DNA of 64,000 nucleotides from Acidobacteriota bacterium. Lineage in GTDB: Bacteria > Acidobacteriota > Terriglobia > Terriglobales > Acidobacteriaceae. Made by a program: the position numbers and the translations under genes. The DNA is taken from NCBI GenBank assembly GCA_021836865.1, contig JAKBHH010000005.1:1-64000 (forward strand), read 5' to 3'. Shown piece by piece: positions 45,199 to 50,353 of the stretch; position 1 is the stretch's first letter, and the number at the start of each line of letters is the position of its first letter. The notes beneath the pieces were generated by a model. The model ran no database searches. It worked only from the letters and a program-made list of their open reading frames with translations, and was not told the origin of the DNA.

Positions 45199-45891
45199 CT
45201 ATTTGTGATCCTTTGATGCCACAAAGTACTTTGCCACGCTGCGTACAAACGGAGCCGCGGCCGGCGGCACGGCCACGTTGCCTTTCAGGATGGACTCAAA
45301 GGTGTGCTGTGCGCCGTAATACGTGTTGGTGTCATCCATGTTCTGGCTGACGCTGGTGCCGTCCAGGTCAATGCCGGCAAACAGGCCTTTGTTGCGGGAA
45401 TAGCTGAGGAGCTCGGCGTTCATCTTCCAGTCCGTTGAAGCCTGGCCCGCACGTCCAACCGGACCGGCCGCTGCCGACGCATCCGCGCCGATCTTGAACT
45501 TGCTCTTCAGCAGATCCTGAAAGCCCTTGTCATTGACGGCAACCAGGACCAGGTCCGTCGACTGCCCGCCGATCTGGAAGCCGAATGAGCCGCCCGCCAT
45601 GCGGATGAACACCGGCGCACTCCAGCCGTGGCCCGTGCGGCAGGTCACCACACCCTGTCCGTACTGGCCGCCAAAGATGAACGCTCCTTTCAACATGCCC
45701 GGCACAACGCCCACGCAGGTGGCTTGTTGCAGGATGTCCGAGGGAATGCTGTGATCTGGAGCGCCCATTATCTGCTCCAGAACGGTCTTCGCGGAATCAA
45801 TGCGATCCTGCAGGTCCTGCTTGGACGATGCCGCAAACGAGGTACATGTGACCAGGAAACAGAAGCAAATTGCGGAAATTACCTTCTTCAT
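45199..45891 (-). CDS. SYLF (Ysc84) domain protein, exported
   Basis: The protein of 230 residues has a Sec signal peptide ('KKVISAICFCFLVTCTSFA') and one SYLF domain: 'VGVVPGMLKGAFIFGGQYGQ', 'GGSFGFQIGGQSTDLVLVAV' and 'LFAGIDLDGTSVS'. The domain binds phosphoinositides in eukaryotes; bacterial versions are periplasmic or outer-membrane lipid-binding proteins of unclear role. ATG 45891 is chosen since it begins the signal peptide and has AGGA upstream; the open frame continues to 46041. It is a single-gene unit ended by the terminator at 45148-45178. Confidence 0.9.
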   Translation of the reverse strand: MKKVISAICFCFLVTCTSFAASSKQDLQDRIDSAKTVLEQIMGAPDHSIPSDILQQATCVGVVPGMLKGAFIFGGQYGQGVVTCRTGHGWSAPVFIRMAGGSFGFQIGGQSTDLVLVAVNDKGFQDLLKSKFKIGADASAAAGPVGRAGQASTDWKMNAELLSYSRNKGLFAGIDLDGTSVSQNMDDTNTYYGAQHTFESILKGNVAVPPAAAPFVRSVAKYFVASKDHK

Positions 45892-46236
45892 GGGTGAGTC
45901 CTTTCGTCGAACGCCAATCGATGGCGTTAGTCTGGGGTGTATTCGCAATAGACGGTGCTTTGGCTGTGGGGTAAGCCCGCCTGCAAAGAGGCAAAAACTC
46001 TGACATCCACCGATCCGATCGTCCGGCAAAGCCCTCCGCATTTTTTAGGATGTTCGCCAGCCGGGAAGATACCGGATCGCACCCGTGCGAGGAACCAGAA
46101 GCTTACATGGACCGCAAACGCAAAAAAGGCCTTTGCGTGTTCATAGGCTTGGATGCTGGATGCTCGGTTCGGGTGGGCTGATCGCACAAAAATAGGGGCT
46201 TCGTGCTTCCGAGGGAAGGTCTACCCCGAAATTCAG
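45892..46236. other. Gene-free region upstream of the SYLF gene
   Basis: No gene is visible in these 345 bases. The SYLF promoter must lie here, but no clear -35/-10 pair could be fixed. Two copies of AGGTAATCG appear further on (about 46325 and 46367), beyond the terminator and before the LuxR-type gene end; their meaning is unknown. Confidence 0.4.
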
Positions 46237-46287
46237 AAAAAAGAGGAGTTCCCAGGCTTCATGCGGACATGCCGCCTGGGAACTCCT
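46237..46287 (-). terminator. Strong intrinsic terminator downstream of the LuxR-type gene
   Basis: Perfect 14-base arms, AGGAGTTCCCAGGC (46244-46257) and its reverse complement (46274-46287), surround a 16-base loop. On the minus strand the stem is followed by CTTTTTT (complement of 46237-46243). It lies 130 bases beyond the stop of the regulator gene. Confidence 0.85.
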
Positions 46288-46416
46288 TTCCCCAGATCTG
46301 CGTTGTTTCTGTAATCGAGTTTCAGGTAATCGGCCATTGGGTACAAGAGTACGAAAGGATTAGATTTTAGGTAATCGCAAATCGAATTACTGAAGTACTT
46401 GACCCCGTGCGGGGAG

Positions 46417-47088
46417 CTACTCCGGTCGCGCCATCTCCGGTCCCCGCAGAGCCATCATCGAGAGTTCAATGCGGTTTTCCGCGCCCGTCTTCCGCATCAG
46501 CTTGCCAACGTGGGATTTCACGGTCCGTTCTTCGATCCCAAGCTCCACCGCGATTTCCCGGTTTGAGCGCGCCAGGAGAATCAGGTCCAGAACCTGTCTT
46601 TCGCGTGCTGTCAGATCTGGCAGCGGGCTGGCAGGGCGCGCTTCTTTATCGGCAAGCAACCGGTCGATCAGCTGCGCCAGAGAGCGCCTCGGAGCCCAGA
46701 TGGAACCGGAAAGGGCCACCTCGATCGCATCGCGGATCGTTCGGGGACCGGCCGACATGTCCAGATAGGCGCGAGCACCCGCTACGATGGCCTCCATCAC
46801 GAGTTCATCGTCGCTGTCAGAACCAATCACAATAAGCCGAATGGAGGGTTTAAGGCGACTGATCTGGCGCAACGTTTCCAGGCACCAGCATGAGGAGTTC
46901 AGATCCACGATCAGGTATCCGACCGCCGGATTCGCCAGCAAATCTTCCAGGGTGCCCACTACAGGAACCAACCGGGTCTGCCCCGGCTGAGTGGAATGCT
47001 CAAAGACACCCCGCAAGCCTTCCATGCGGATCGGCTCGCCCGCAATGAGTCCTACGGGGACAGTGTGCCGGCTGGTTCCTTGGTCCAT
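46417..47088 (-). CDS. LuxR/NarL-family regulator with degenerate receiver
   Basis: The protein of about 223 residues has an N-terminal receiver-like fold and a C-terminal LuxR helix-turn-helix ('LTARERQVLDLILLARSNRE', 'IEERTVKSHVGKLMRKT'). The receiver is atypical: the acidic pair is replaced by 'LIAGEPIRMEG', an Asp is kept in 'YLIVDLNSS', but the conserved Lys is missing ('ARAYLDMSAG'). Normal phosphorylation control is therefore doubtful. No sensor kinase lies beside it. ATG 47088 has a GAGAG site; GTG 47100 is an alternative. It follows dcd on the same strand after about 120 bp. Confidence 0.85.
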   Translation of the reverse strand: MDQGTSRHTVPVGLIAGEPIRMEGLRGVFEHSTQPGQTRLVPVVGTLEDLLANPAVGYLIVDLNSSCWCLETLRQISRLKPSIRLIVIGSDSDDELVMEAIVAGARAYLDMSAGPRTIRDAIEVALSGSIWAPRRSLAQLIDRLLADKEARPASPLPDLTARERQVLDLILLARSNREIAVELGIEERTVKSHVGKLMRKTGAENRIELSMMALRGPEMARPE

Positions 47089-47210
47089 ACGAACTCTCAC
47101 CGCGGTTGCCTCGCCCTTCGGTGCCGTCCGGATTCAGATTCCTGACAGTGCTATCGGGCGTCGGCCATTCGATCGACAGGCCATCCTCACGCCGGGCCAT
47201 GCTGTGCGAT

Positions 47211-47765
47211 TTACAGCTTGGGAAGCACAATTCCCTGCTGTTTCTGGTACTTGCCTTTGCGATCCGCATAACTTACTTCGCAGACCTCATCGGACCGGAA
47301 AAACAGGATCTGGCAGAGCCCCTCGTTCGCGTACACCTTTGCCGGCAGCGGTGTAGTGTTTGAGATTTCAAGAGTCACAAACCCTTCCCACTCCGGCTCA
47401 AACGGTGTCACATTCACAATAATGCCGCAACGGGCGTACGTGGACTTCCCAACACAGATGGTTAGCACGTTCCTGGGAATACGAAAGTACTCAACCGAAC
47501 GAGCCAGGGCAAAAGAATTCGGCGGAATAATCACCGACTCCGCCTGCACGGAGACAAAGGACCGCTCGTCAAAAGCCTTGGGGTCGATGATCGCGGAGTT
47601 TACGTTGGTAAATATCTTGAACTCATCGGTGACCCGAAGGTCGTAGCCGTAGGAGGACAGGCCGTAGGATATGACGCCCTCGCGAACCTGCTTTTCGCTG
47701 AAGGGCTCAATTATCTTGTGCTGCAGGGCCTGTTCCCTGATCCAACGGTCGCTCTGAATGGACAT
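47211..47765 (-). CDS. dcd: dCTP deaminase
   Basis: The protein of 184 residues has the trimeric dUTPase-like fold with '[20 protein letters not shown]', '[20 protein letters not shown]' and the catalytic Glu in '[20 protein letters not shown]'. It converts dCTP to dUTP for thymidylate synthesis; a bifunctional dCTP deaminase/dUTPase cannot be excluded from sequence alone. ATG 47765 has AGGAG five bases upstream; seven further in-frame codons upstream are not conserved. It precedes the LuxR-type gene on the minus strand. Confidence 0.93.
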
Positions 47766-48053
47766 GCTTCTCCTGTCGCGGCTCACACACGAAGCCGGTC
47801 ATTGGTTAAGTGGCGCACTAGGCCGCTCGAAAACTTCATCTTACGGAACGCGCACCCCAATGACAACCTGTGCGAATCTCCGCGTATCCGCTGACTGCCG
47901 GAACCCTCTACCGCCTTCGCGCCAATCCATGCTGGAGAGAATCGCCCTTGAACCGGCATGGGCCGGGTGTTCCATCTTTGGCGCAAAATCTGTACCATCA
48001 ACTGCGTAGGGCGTGGTACAGTCGATTTCAGTCGCGCATGCGAGGTGACCGCA

Positions 48054-48344
48054 TTGATCAAGCAGGACATCGTACACCATGTAATCGAACGCACGGGCCT
48101 GCCGCGCACCAAGGCTGAGGCAGCCGTGGACACCGTGTTCGAAGGCCTGAAGCAGGCACTTGCCGCCGGAGAACGCATTGAACTGCGCGGGTTTGGCGTC
48201 TTCAGCGTCCGAGCGCGCAAAACCGGCATCGGCCGCAACCCCCGCACCGGCACTGAGGTCAGCATCACGCCGGGCAAGGCCGTGCGTTTCAAGCCCGGCA
48301 AAGAACTGCATACCCTGGACACCGGCGGCGCACCCGGCAAATGA
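48054..48344 (+). CDS. HU/IHF-family DNA-binding protein
   Basis: The protein of about 96 residues has the histone-like fold: 'IKQDIVHHVIERTGLPRTKA', 'LAAGERIELRGFGVFSVRAR' and the DNA-contacting arm 'KTGIGRNPRTGTEVSI' ending 'GKAVRFKPGKEL'. It bends DNA as a homo- or heterodimer. A perfect GAGGTGA five bases before TTG 48054 supports that start; GTG 48045 would lie inside the ribosome site. Its stop overlaps the ATG of the next gene (ATGA), linking a nucleoid protein to a membrane phosphatase. Confidence 0.87.
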   Translation: MIKQDIVHHVIERTGLPRTKAEAAVDTVFEGLKQALAAGERIELRGFGVFSVRARKTGIGRNPRTGTEVSITPGKAVRFKPGKELHTLDTGGAPGK

Positions 48345-50353
48345 CGGCGCAGCCGGCCAGCCAGACTCGCAGTCTGGCGCAGGGAGCAGTACGGGCCGCT
48401 CGCAGAAGGATTTGCGCCAGTGGGCTGTTATTGCTGCTTGCCTGCTGTGGCTTGCTCCAGGCCCAGACCTTCAATCTCGCAACGGACCGCGAGCCTGTGG
48501 CTTCACTCAATGGCCTTTGGCGGTTCCATCCCGGCGACAACCCAGCCTGGGCCAGCCCCAACTTCGATGACTCCGCATGGCCCCTGCTGCGCTCAGATGA
48601 AGACTGGGCCAAGCAGGGATACCAGGGCTACAGCGGCTTTGCGTGGTATCGCTTTCGCGTCGTCATCCCGCCGGGATTGGACCACGTATCCCTTCTGCTT
48701 CCGCCGATCTTCACCAGCTATCAGGTCTATGCAGACGGCAAACTCATGGGATCCTTCAGCCAGATGCCTCCCCATGAACTCGTGCGCCTGCCAGGGCCGG
48801 CCGTATATGCGCTGAATTTCGGGCAGGAGTCTGCACCAACAGAAGCGACGATCGCTGTGCGCGTATGGCACTGGTTGGGTTGGTCAGCGTACGACGGCGG
48901 AGGACCTCTGAGTGGCGGAGGGCTCGTTGGAAAGTCGAGCCTGATCGATGCGCAGCTCCAGCTCCGGAACGATTCACGGCTGCTCAGAAATGGCGCAAGT
49001 TATTCGCTCGCAATCCTGACCGCTACCTCCGGCATGATGGCGCTTCTTCTATTTCTGGTCCGGCGCAAGGAAACCGAGTATCTCTGGTTTGCACTCAATC
49101 AACTGGCAAATGCGATTCTCTTTAGTCTGTTCGTCTATGAGGATACTCATGCCGTCCCGCTTTTTAGCAGAGATTTTGCAAACGCCTCGTTGGAGCTCAT
49201 CGCCGGTTTGAGTCTTGTCTTTTTCCTGCAGATACTATTGCGTGGCCGCAGGACTGTACTTTTCTATCTGGCGATTATAGCCGTGTTGCAAAGCCCAGTC
49301 TTGCTTCTCAGCTTGTTCCTGCATCTTGGGATCACTGTGGGTTACGTCAATTTGACGGATGCTGTGGGTACGCTTGTGGTGTTCGCGTGGGCCTGTGGCC
49401 TTCTGGTTCGACGAGCGAAAGAGGGTTTGCCGGATGCCCGTCTACTGATGGCGCCCGTGCTCATCGCCCTGGGATTGCGGTCCGCCGATTCCGTGCTGTG
49501 GGGAGCTTTTCAGCTTGGATGGACGAAGACTTTTGATGGATCGTTGATCCTGTTCAACGACCCGTTTCCCTTTCCCGCCGATAACCTGGTCGAGGTCCTG
49601 TTCCTGATCGCCATGCTGGCAATTCTCTCCAACCGCTTTATACGTTCGCGCAGCCAGGAAGAGCGATTTGCAAGCGAGGTGATGGCGGCGCGGAGCGTGC
49701 AGCAGTACCTCATCCCGGTGCACCTGCCGAATACACCCGGCCTCGCCATCGAAAGCGAATACCGCCCTGCCCGGGAAGTGGGCGGCGATTTCTTTCAGGT
49801 GCTGCCTCAGGCCGCGGATGGAAGCGTAATGATTGTAGTGGGTGACGTTGCAGGCCATGGACTCGAAGCGGGAATGCTTGCCACGCTCATCGTAGGCGCC
49901 ATCCGCACTGCGGCGTCGTTCACCACGGATACGGCCCGCATCCTTGCGCTGCTCAATGAGCGGATGCAGGGTCGTGGCCTCGCCACTTGCCTCGCGTTGC
50001 GCGTCGAGAAGGATGGCAACGCAACCTTGGCCAACGCCGGCCACCTGCCGCCGTACCGGAACGGAAACGAGTTGTCCATCGAGGGCGCACTCCCGCTCGG
50101 CGCAGTTCCCGGCATCGACTTCCCTGTTCTGCATTTCAAGCTCGTGGAAGGCGACTCACTGATGCTGATGACCGATGGCGTCGCCGAAGCGCAAAACGCC
50201 GAGGGCCATCTCTTCGGCTTCGAGCGTATCGCAGAGTTGCTCCAGAAAGGCACCGCCGGCGCTGCTCTTGCCAACGCCGCGCAGGCCTTCGGCCAGCAAG
50301 ACGACATCACTGTCCTCACCATTGCTCGCATGGCAGCAGCGGTCAGCGCCTGA
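48341..50353 (+). CDS. Membrane SpoIIE-type PP2C phosphatase with sugar-binding-like sensor and 7TM
   Basis: The protein of 670 residues has four parts. A signal peptide is followed by a galactose-binding-like domain resembling that of family 2 glycoside hydrolases ('SLNGLWRFHPGDNPAW', 'FDDSAWPLL'; about 35-190). Seven hydrophobic segments (about 225-425) form a 7TM-DISM-type module. The C-terminal SpoIIE phosphatase (about 450-665) carries metal-binding acids in 'EVGGDFFQVL' and 'VVGDVAGHGLEAGML'. It probably dephosphorylates an anti-sigma-factor antagonist in response to an extracellular ligand. No partner is adjacent. It resembles the protein at 54162-56237. Confidence 0.88.
   Translation: MTAQPASQTRSLAQGAVRAARRRICASGLLLLLACCGLLQAQTFNLATDREPVASLNGLWRFHPGDNPAWASPNFDDSAWPLLRSDEDWAKQGYQGYSGFAWYRFRVVIPPGLDHVSLLLPPIFTSYQVYADGKLMGSFSQMPPHELVRLPGPAVYALNFGQESAPTEATIAVRVWHWLGWSAYDGGGPLSGGGLVGKSSLIDAQLQLRNDSRLLRNGASYSLAILTATSGMMALLLFLVRRKETEYLWFALNQLANAILFSLFVYEDTHAVPLFSRDFANASLELIAGLSLVFFLQILLRGRRTVLFYLAIIAVLQSPVLLLSLFLHLGITVGYVNLTDAVGTLVVFAWACGLLVRRAKEGLPDARLLMAPVLIALGLRSADSVLWGAFQLGWTKTFDGSLILFNDPFPFPADNLVEVLFLIAMLAILSNRFIRSRSQEERFASEVMAARSVQQYLIPVHLPNTPGLAIESEYRPAREVGGDFFQVLPQAADGSVMIVVGDVAGHGLEAGMLATLIVGAIRTAASFTTDTARILALLNERMQGRGLATCLALRVEKDGNATLANAGHLPPYRNGNELSIEGALPLGAVPGIDFPVLHFKLVEGDSLMLMTDGVAEAQNAEGHLFGFERIAELLQKGTAGAALANAAQAFGQQDDITVLTIARMAAAVSA

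Follow-up and report, generated by a model that had tools for sequence, protein, structure and literature searches.

In a 64,000-nucleotide stretch of an Acidobacteriota genome (hereafter the window), a NarL/FixJ-type regulator that has lost most of its phosphorylation pocket lies directly upstream of a separate, structured RNA. The RNA is conserved in its own right and is co-conserved with the regulator. At the level of sequence, four points are established: the loss of the pocket, a motif that marks the regulator family, the conservation of the RNA, and its linkage to the regulator. To explain them, we propose an orphan transcription factor that dimerizes by itself, independent of phosphorylation, and that controls the separate RNA downstream. 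We hold this explanation with about even confidence. The features are collected in Table 1.

Table 1. Features of the regulator-RNA locus in the window
Feature	Position	Strand	Basis or remark
Regulator coding sequence, 223 aa	46417..47088	-	ATG at 47088; alternative in-frame GTG at 47100 possible
Degenerate receiver domain, residues 9-126 (A16, G17, D62, G89, M111)	46711..47064	-	AF2 elements and alignment with relatives
W131-A-P-R134 motif and extra helix alpha6 (residues 131-148), hydrophobic I141 = W+10	46645..46698	-	
GerE/LuxR-type helix-turn-helix (HTH), residues 159-213	46450..46614	-	
Conserved small RNA element, 134 nt	46237..46370	-	Covariance model R1 match, 124.7 bits
RNA core AGAAACAACGCAGATCTGGGGAA	46288..46310	-	Part AACAACGCAGATCTGGGG invariant in 44 aligned copies
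RNA terminal hairpin, 14-bp outer stem	46244..46287	-	Covariation
T-run completing the intrinsic terminator	46237..46242	-	
Conserved block CCTTTCGTACTCTTGT, possible -10 region (TACTCT) of a putative RNA promoter	46343..46358	-	
Position-fixed TTAC box, here CGATTACC, putative regulator site	46363..46377	-	
Degenerate counterpart of the upstream TTAC-N6-GTAA palindrome	46383..46398	-	No exact match in the window
SYLF/Ysc84-domain protein, signal-peptide-like start (by eye)	45199..45891	-	Frequent downstream neighbor
dcd (dCTP deaminase)	47211..47771	-	Upstream neighbor in many relatives
HU-family DNA-binding protein	47958..48344	+	Divergent neighbor in many relatives

The Regulator Family and Its Gene Neighborhood

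The initial annotation described a LuxR-type regulator with an intact DNA-binding half. This description is correct: the reading frame exists on the reverse strand, and its GerE HTH domain scores 57.7 bits against a Pfam cut-off of 23.5. The receiver domain (Response_reg) scores 24.7 bits, under the gathering score of 30.2. A UvrY/SirA/GacA model reaches 53.6 bits, far under its cut-off of 280. The best PDB matches, by sequence and by fold, are NarL, LiaR, VraR and DevR. The window protein shares the overall architecture of these phosphorylated response regulators but lacks four of the five pocket residues. A search with a 60-aa fragment returned nothing useful.

The AF2 model of the protein (pLDDT 80, pTM 0.59) was built on a shallow alignment of nine rows, and its domain arrangement is unreliable. 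Its predicted elements indicate that the (beta-alpha)5 fold of a receiver is present. Receiver folds match the model with Z of about 16 and an rmsd of about 1.9 over about 115 residues.

The window's own genome contains this copy of the regulator and eight weaker paralogue matches. At E <= 1e-20 the regulator is present in 29 of 35 genomes of the same genus. The total over 60 genomes is 33, which includes the own genome and three weak matches in another family. In a sample of the order, a profile of the A1 set (33 members) finds it at 1e-40 in 260 of 298 genomes (225 of the 251 of good quality) and in 57 of 70 genera; a few of these genomes have two copies. In a sample of the class, searched at 1e-35, it is found in 35 of the 37 genomes of its own family and in none of the 114 outside. 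Among named relatives, the three nearest belong to Acidobacteria/Acidobacteriaceae MAGs. When 27 members are placed in a tree with 40 other regulators and CsgD, all 27 form one clade with a support of 0.993.

Many relatives retain the gene order of the window, with HU pointing one way and dcd, the regulator and SYLF following each other in the opposite direction. Among 40 further loci (39 from other genera and one from the same genus), SYLF is near 33, HU near 15 and dcd near 14. In the relatives L014, L015, L016 and L019 dcd is missing from this place while HU and SYLF stay, hence dcd is the least stable member of the neighborhood there. Directly after the HU gene of the window lies a membrane protein (48341-50353, forward strand) with a 7TMR-DISM-like part and a SpoIIE phosphatase domain.

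A Conserved RNA Downstream of the Regulator

According to the initial annotation, the regulator gene ends in a strong terminator. The hairpin and the T-run are indeed real and strong (-38.8 kcal/mol, z -5.2), but they close a separate RNA element. The hairpin starts about 130 nt past the stop codon of the regulator, and the element that it closes is conserved separately and also occurs away from the regulator. Thus, it is not simply the terminator of the regulator gene; that reading was rejected because copies also occur elsewhere and as tandem repeats. The sequence of the hairpin is kept even where the regulators of two species share just 51-66% identity, a conservation that a plain terminator need not show.

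Of the 53 element copies listed, alignment A6 contains 44; L014, L024, L029, L033:513-651 (divergent), L039, L049, L069, L090 and L094 are outside it. In distant genera the letters of the stem change wholesale while the pairing is kept, and both sides have changed in 12 of 18 pairs. The stem has 50 double-change cells against 12.6 in shuffles, and a covariation score of 0.242 against at most 0.111 when slid. The core varies by clade (AACAACGCAGATCTGGGGAA, AGCAACACAGACCTGGGAGA, ACCTACCACAGAACCTGGGAGA). Outside the alignment it is not invariant: L033:513-651, the second copy of L037, L287 and L288 deviate. In one deep clade (L097, L101, L103, L106 and relatives) the loop of the terminal hairpin is conserved too, as about GAGGGTC. 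This loop is not shared by the genus of the window.

With a conserved hairpin on the same strand, covariation and a T-run, the element has the form of an intrinsically terminated small RNA. Rfam 15 contains no match at E <= 1 for positions 45800-47300 of the window and none at gathering score for six loci. Two other identities were rejected. The element could be coding: the window copy has a frame of 34 codons that starts with ATG. However, no conserved frame is seen: the ATG is found in only 10 of the 44 aligned copies (12 and 2 for the other two frames), and the hairpin varies by 1-2 nt between species, which counts against coding. The element could also be a dispersed repeat, but the 12 of 60 genomes with the hairpin pattern have it at a single place each, and model matches in the listed genomes are confined to one place per genome, in some cases as tandem copies.

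The covariance model finds the RNA in 33 of the 60 relatives' genomes, all from the window's own genus. In the class sample it finds the RNA in 28 of 151 genomes, all from the own family (28 of 37, compared to 0 of 114 outside). In all 28 the RNA lies 38-167 nt downstream of a regulator match and on the same strand, and 24 of these genomes were not used to build the model. A genome search of the same sample finds the regulator without the RNA in 7 of 35 genomes. At the 40 further loci, the model places the RNA (E <= 2e-5) at most 550 nt downstream of the regulator in 20 and 2.2 kb from it in one. Six more have a weak model match (E 0.002-0.23) but the core motif, and eight have the core motif alone, one of which, L076, lacks an evident hairpin. 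At the remaining five the RNA is not found, even by its core motif.

Boxes Upstream of the RNA

The RNA is often preceded by a TTAC box, a plausible binding site of the regulator. We compared 82 upstream regions of the RNA, a set that includes close relatives. In 49 of them [GA]TTAC is found at the same position, -16 to -18 from the end of the cut-out. The box lies outside the covariance model, hence its fixed place is not forced by the model. The palindrome TTAC-N6-GTAA occurs in 15 of the 82 regions. Other spacings from 0 to 15 yield 0 or 1 occurrence, and shuffles, which keep dinucleotides only approximately, yield a mean of 0.16 and a maximum of 2.

Neither the regulator (0 of 73) nor SYLF (0 of 61) has this palindrome upstream. 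Hence, there is no sign of autoregulation, and autoregulation through this palindrome can be rejected. TTAC/GTAA half-sites with a 4-nt gap do occur upstream of the regulator in 6 of the 73 loci. A genome-wide regulon based on a composite site can be rejected as well. Across 37 genomes, this site matches 21 times, 8 of these being RNA promoters, compared to 35 matches for the reversed control, so the composite site has no genome-wide excess.

Alternatively, the TTAC boxes may serve another transcription factor. The regulator would then have other targets and would be a mere neighbor of the RNA. This scenario is on the unlikely side, but it deserves some weight because the palindrome is missing upstream of both the regulator and SYLF. 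It does not account for the co-conservation in every RNA-bearing genome of the class sample. Furthermore, the symmetric half-sites suit a dimeric HTH protein.

Genomes that have the RNA but lack the regulator also bear on this question. In G024, dcd and SYLF flank two copies of the RNA, and the regulator is missing between them. The layout is retained in the first copy, although the GGTTAC and TTACC of relatives are replaced by GGCTAC and TGACC; the second has no promoter-like block. The altered box argues against another factor. However, the core of the first copy has changed too, so general decay also explains the altered box. In G035 the regulator is missing from its place between dcd and SYLF, and the RNA copies have no GTACTCTTGT block. 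Both genomes are less than 80% complete, and regulator-less genomes are single cases and not a test.

The RNA Outside Its Usual Place

At most loci the RNA lies a few to about 230 nt past the stop codon of the regulator, usually before SYLF. It could thus be no more than the 3' UTR and terminator belonging to the regulator mRNA, or else a SYLF leader, and not an independent RNA gene. In line with this reading, the window RNA has no consensus sigma-70 promoter. Yet, the element and its upstream block are also found apart from the regulator in G022 and L208, and apart from both the regulator and SYLF in G008 and L229/L291. In G022 the RNA adjoins SYLF; in G008 some 200 kb of the same contig separate it from the regulator. 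L033 has four copies in tandem, each with its terminator, and a conserved block and box precede the RNA. These observations make the 3' UTR reading improbable.

No regulator match accompanies the RNA in four genomes (G003, G024, G028 and G035), which are 73-88% complete. In G003 the RNA lies near the start of a contig. In G028 (L289) it lies behind a transposase-like frame (identified by eye) instead of the regulator, with box and block intact. Tandem copies are found in L033 (G030), L037 (G017), L288 (G035) and L287 (G024). In some of them, and in L025, another shared stretch like TGAGCAATATTGACCA replaces the GTACTCTTGT block; it is possibly a second type of promoter.

The conserved upstream block, the boxes and the genomic autonomy would fit a putative promoter of the RNA's own, although no hit to the sigma-70 consensus was found. 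If transcription started just past the conserved block, the transcript would be about 105 nt long.

A Motif and an Extra Helix in the Regulator

How might the regulator work? We compared 96 family members (the 33 of the A1 set and 63 others left after the removal of five same-genome duplicates; close relatives are included). W131, A132 and R134 are invariant in all 96, and P133 is found in 95. The background set comprises NarL-type proteins from the own genome and from other Acidobacteriota plus five distant ones; removing the target itself, one non-regulator and two duplicates reduced it from 44 to 40 proteins. W131 and R134 occur together in just 1 of these 40 and in none of 8 plasmid-borne regulators. 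I, L or V at position 141, ten residues past the Trp, is found in all 96 members, but also in 21 of the 40 background proteins. In the protein model, W-A-x-R is predicted to open an extra helix (134-148) after alpha5.

W131 and R134 are in register with W131 and R134 of the c-di-GMP motif WLTR of VpsT. CsgD fits the same register: the VpsT stretch EMWLTRKLAQEYI aligns to ECYFTQKLASYLI in CsgD, and the window protein aligns to CsgD with SIWAPRRSLAQLI. In VpsT, CsgD (YFTQ) and the window protein an Ile follows ten residues past the aromatic residue. CsgD of Escherichia coli also combines a degenerate receiver with a GerE-type HTH, but it is only 18% identical to the window protein. In the tree it adjoins the regulator family with a support of 0.577, on a long branch.

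The register suggests that the regulator could sense c-di-GMP through W131 and R134, as VpsT does, and dimerize on binding. The own genome contains nine GGDEF domains, and VpsT ranks fifth in the Foldseek search with the window protein. A PDB profile search with the motif region alone does not list VpsT. It is also not among the 50 matches listed in the VIA list, which excludes nothing. The sequence of the motif argues against c-di-GMP sensing. With WAPR, the regulator falls outside the strict motif W[FLM][TS]R: it has Ala at position 2 and Pro at position 3, where VpsT has Thr. The Pro speaks against a strict VpsT-type sensor, and in the available text of PMC6237807 two proteins with WLPR, QstR and BrpT, are reported to be independent of c-di-GMP. 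A c-di-GMP sensor is therefore quite unlikely.

The comparison with QstR points to another mode of action. The same text describes QstR of Vibrio cholerae as a protein that self-dimerizes, for which the phosphosite and c-di-GMP are dispensable and L137, the equivalent of W+10, is required (PMC6237807). Compared via this published description and not by alignment, QstR and the window protein share a LuxR-type HTH, W-x-P-R and a hydrophobic W+10 residue. The window family differs by its Ala in WAPR, by the loss of the Asp in many members, and by its linkage to a small RNA and SYLF. Because WAPR has a Pro like the WLPR of QstR, the window protein appears nearest to the self-dimerizing version that does not depend on c-di-GMP. 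The initial annotation had suggested that the protein may respond to a ligand or a protein partner in place of phosphorylation. Given the likeness to QstR, a regulator that dimerizes by itself and is governed by how much of it is present is no less probable than a sensor of a ligand.

Loss of the Phosphorylation Pocket

The joint alignment gives A16, G17, D62, G89 and M111 for the phosphorylation positions of the window regulator. A16/G17 stand in place of the acidic pair, G89 replaces the T/S and M111 the Lys; only Asp62 is kept. Hence, the receiver was correctly described at the outset as lacking the acidic pair and the conserved Lys while retaining an Asp. An acidic pocket and a functional Lys at shifted positions had been named as the result that would speak against this description. 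No Lys occurs between K80 and K148 of the translation, which rules out a shifted Lys. An acid shifted by one place does exist: E18 lies one place past the usual pair, and 94 of 96 relatives have D or E there. This near-invariant acid weakens a clean statement that the window regulator has no acid in this region.

The protein had also been called a pseudo-receiver, and this holds for the whole orthologous family. All 96 members keep at most two of the five pocket residues, while 38 of the 40 background regulators keep all five. The Lys is found in 0 of the 96 members, the T/S in 3 and Asp62 in 57; in the other 39 the Asp is missing. A pseudo-receiver (PsR) is defined, in the available text of a 2025 review, as a domain that is recognized as a receiver but lacks key catalytic residues, and about 6% of bacterial receivers are of this kind (PMC12632262). 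The window regulator corresponds to this definition, its receiver being recognized under the gathering score. It is not an aspartate-less receiver (ALR), as D62 is present. Two LuxR-type proteins on other contigs of the own genome (L156 on C49 and L157 on C67) have degenerate receivers as well. Each has only one pocket residue of the five left. The first motif of both is IILADSQAI, and the two form a group in the tree.

Of the 33 members of the A1 set, 31 retain Asp62, 15 have an acid at position 17 and 32 have one at position 18, which makes weak phosphorylation possible there. Nevertheless, a residual two-component regulator whose Asp62 is still phosphorylated in this genus, by acetyl phosphate or a non-cognate kinase, is very unlikely: the Lys is missing throughout the family and the T/S in 93 of 96, the Asp is replaced in 37 of the 63 members of the second set, and, among the neighboring genes of the window that were examined, Pfam detects no kinase.

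Discussion

The explanation that we favor is an orphan regulator whose receiver domain, beyond phosphorylation switching, has turned into a module for protein-protein contact between the subunits of a dimer. The regulator would dimerize through helix alpha6 without phosphate. Because the Pro at the third position of its motif is also found in QstR, it would probably do so without c-di-GMP. Its activity would then be set by the amount made or by a partner. The dimer would bind the TTAC boxes upstream of the RNA and control its transcription. The RNA would be transcribed on its own and, with its conserved core and variable terminator stem, would act in trans, its targets being mRNAs or an RNA-binding protein.

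A more general claim is that this pair forms a two-part switch throughout the family of Acidobacteriota, in which a phosphorylation-blind self-dimerizer has an adjacent, trans-acting small RNA as its dedicated output. We put this claim forward tentatively and with less than even confidence.

Pseudo-receivers are already known. Hence, what is new is not the protein alone but its pairing, across the family, with a small RNA that is unlisted. In the open-access literature, covered partly by titles and abstracts of the papers listed, we found nothing in print on either the regulator family or the RNA. For Acidobacteria, the available part of one review table gives no more than 4 small RNAs as annotated (PMC9029176).

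The regulator family is mostly single-copy and near-universal in one family of soil bacteria, with an invariant motif and a likely dimer helix. It also adjoins a specific candidate target, the RNA. The 2025 review terms the switching of bacterial pseudo-receivers a mystery (PMC12632262).

The regulator and the RNA resemble a known design by analogy. GacA/UvrY with RsmY/Z or CsrB/C is likewise a NarL/FixJ-type protein paired with small RNAs. The resemblance would be one of working only: the window regulator does not appear to be phosphorylatable, judged by its residues, and its RNA matches no Rfam family. If the two-part switch is real, these bacteria would have a kinase-free counterpart of the path from GacA to small RNAs that evolved independently. 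The RNA of this counterpart would be free to duplicate, in up to four tandem copies, or to leave its regulator.
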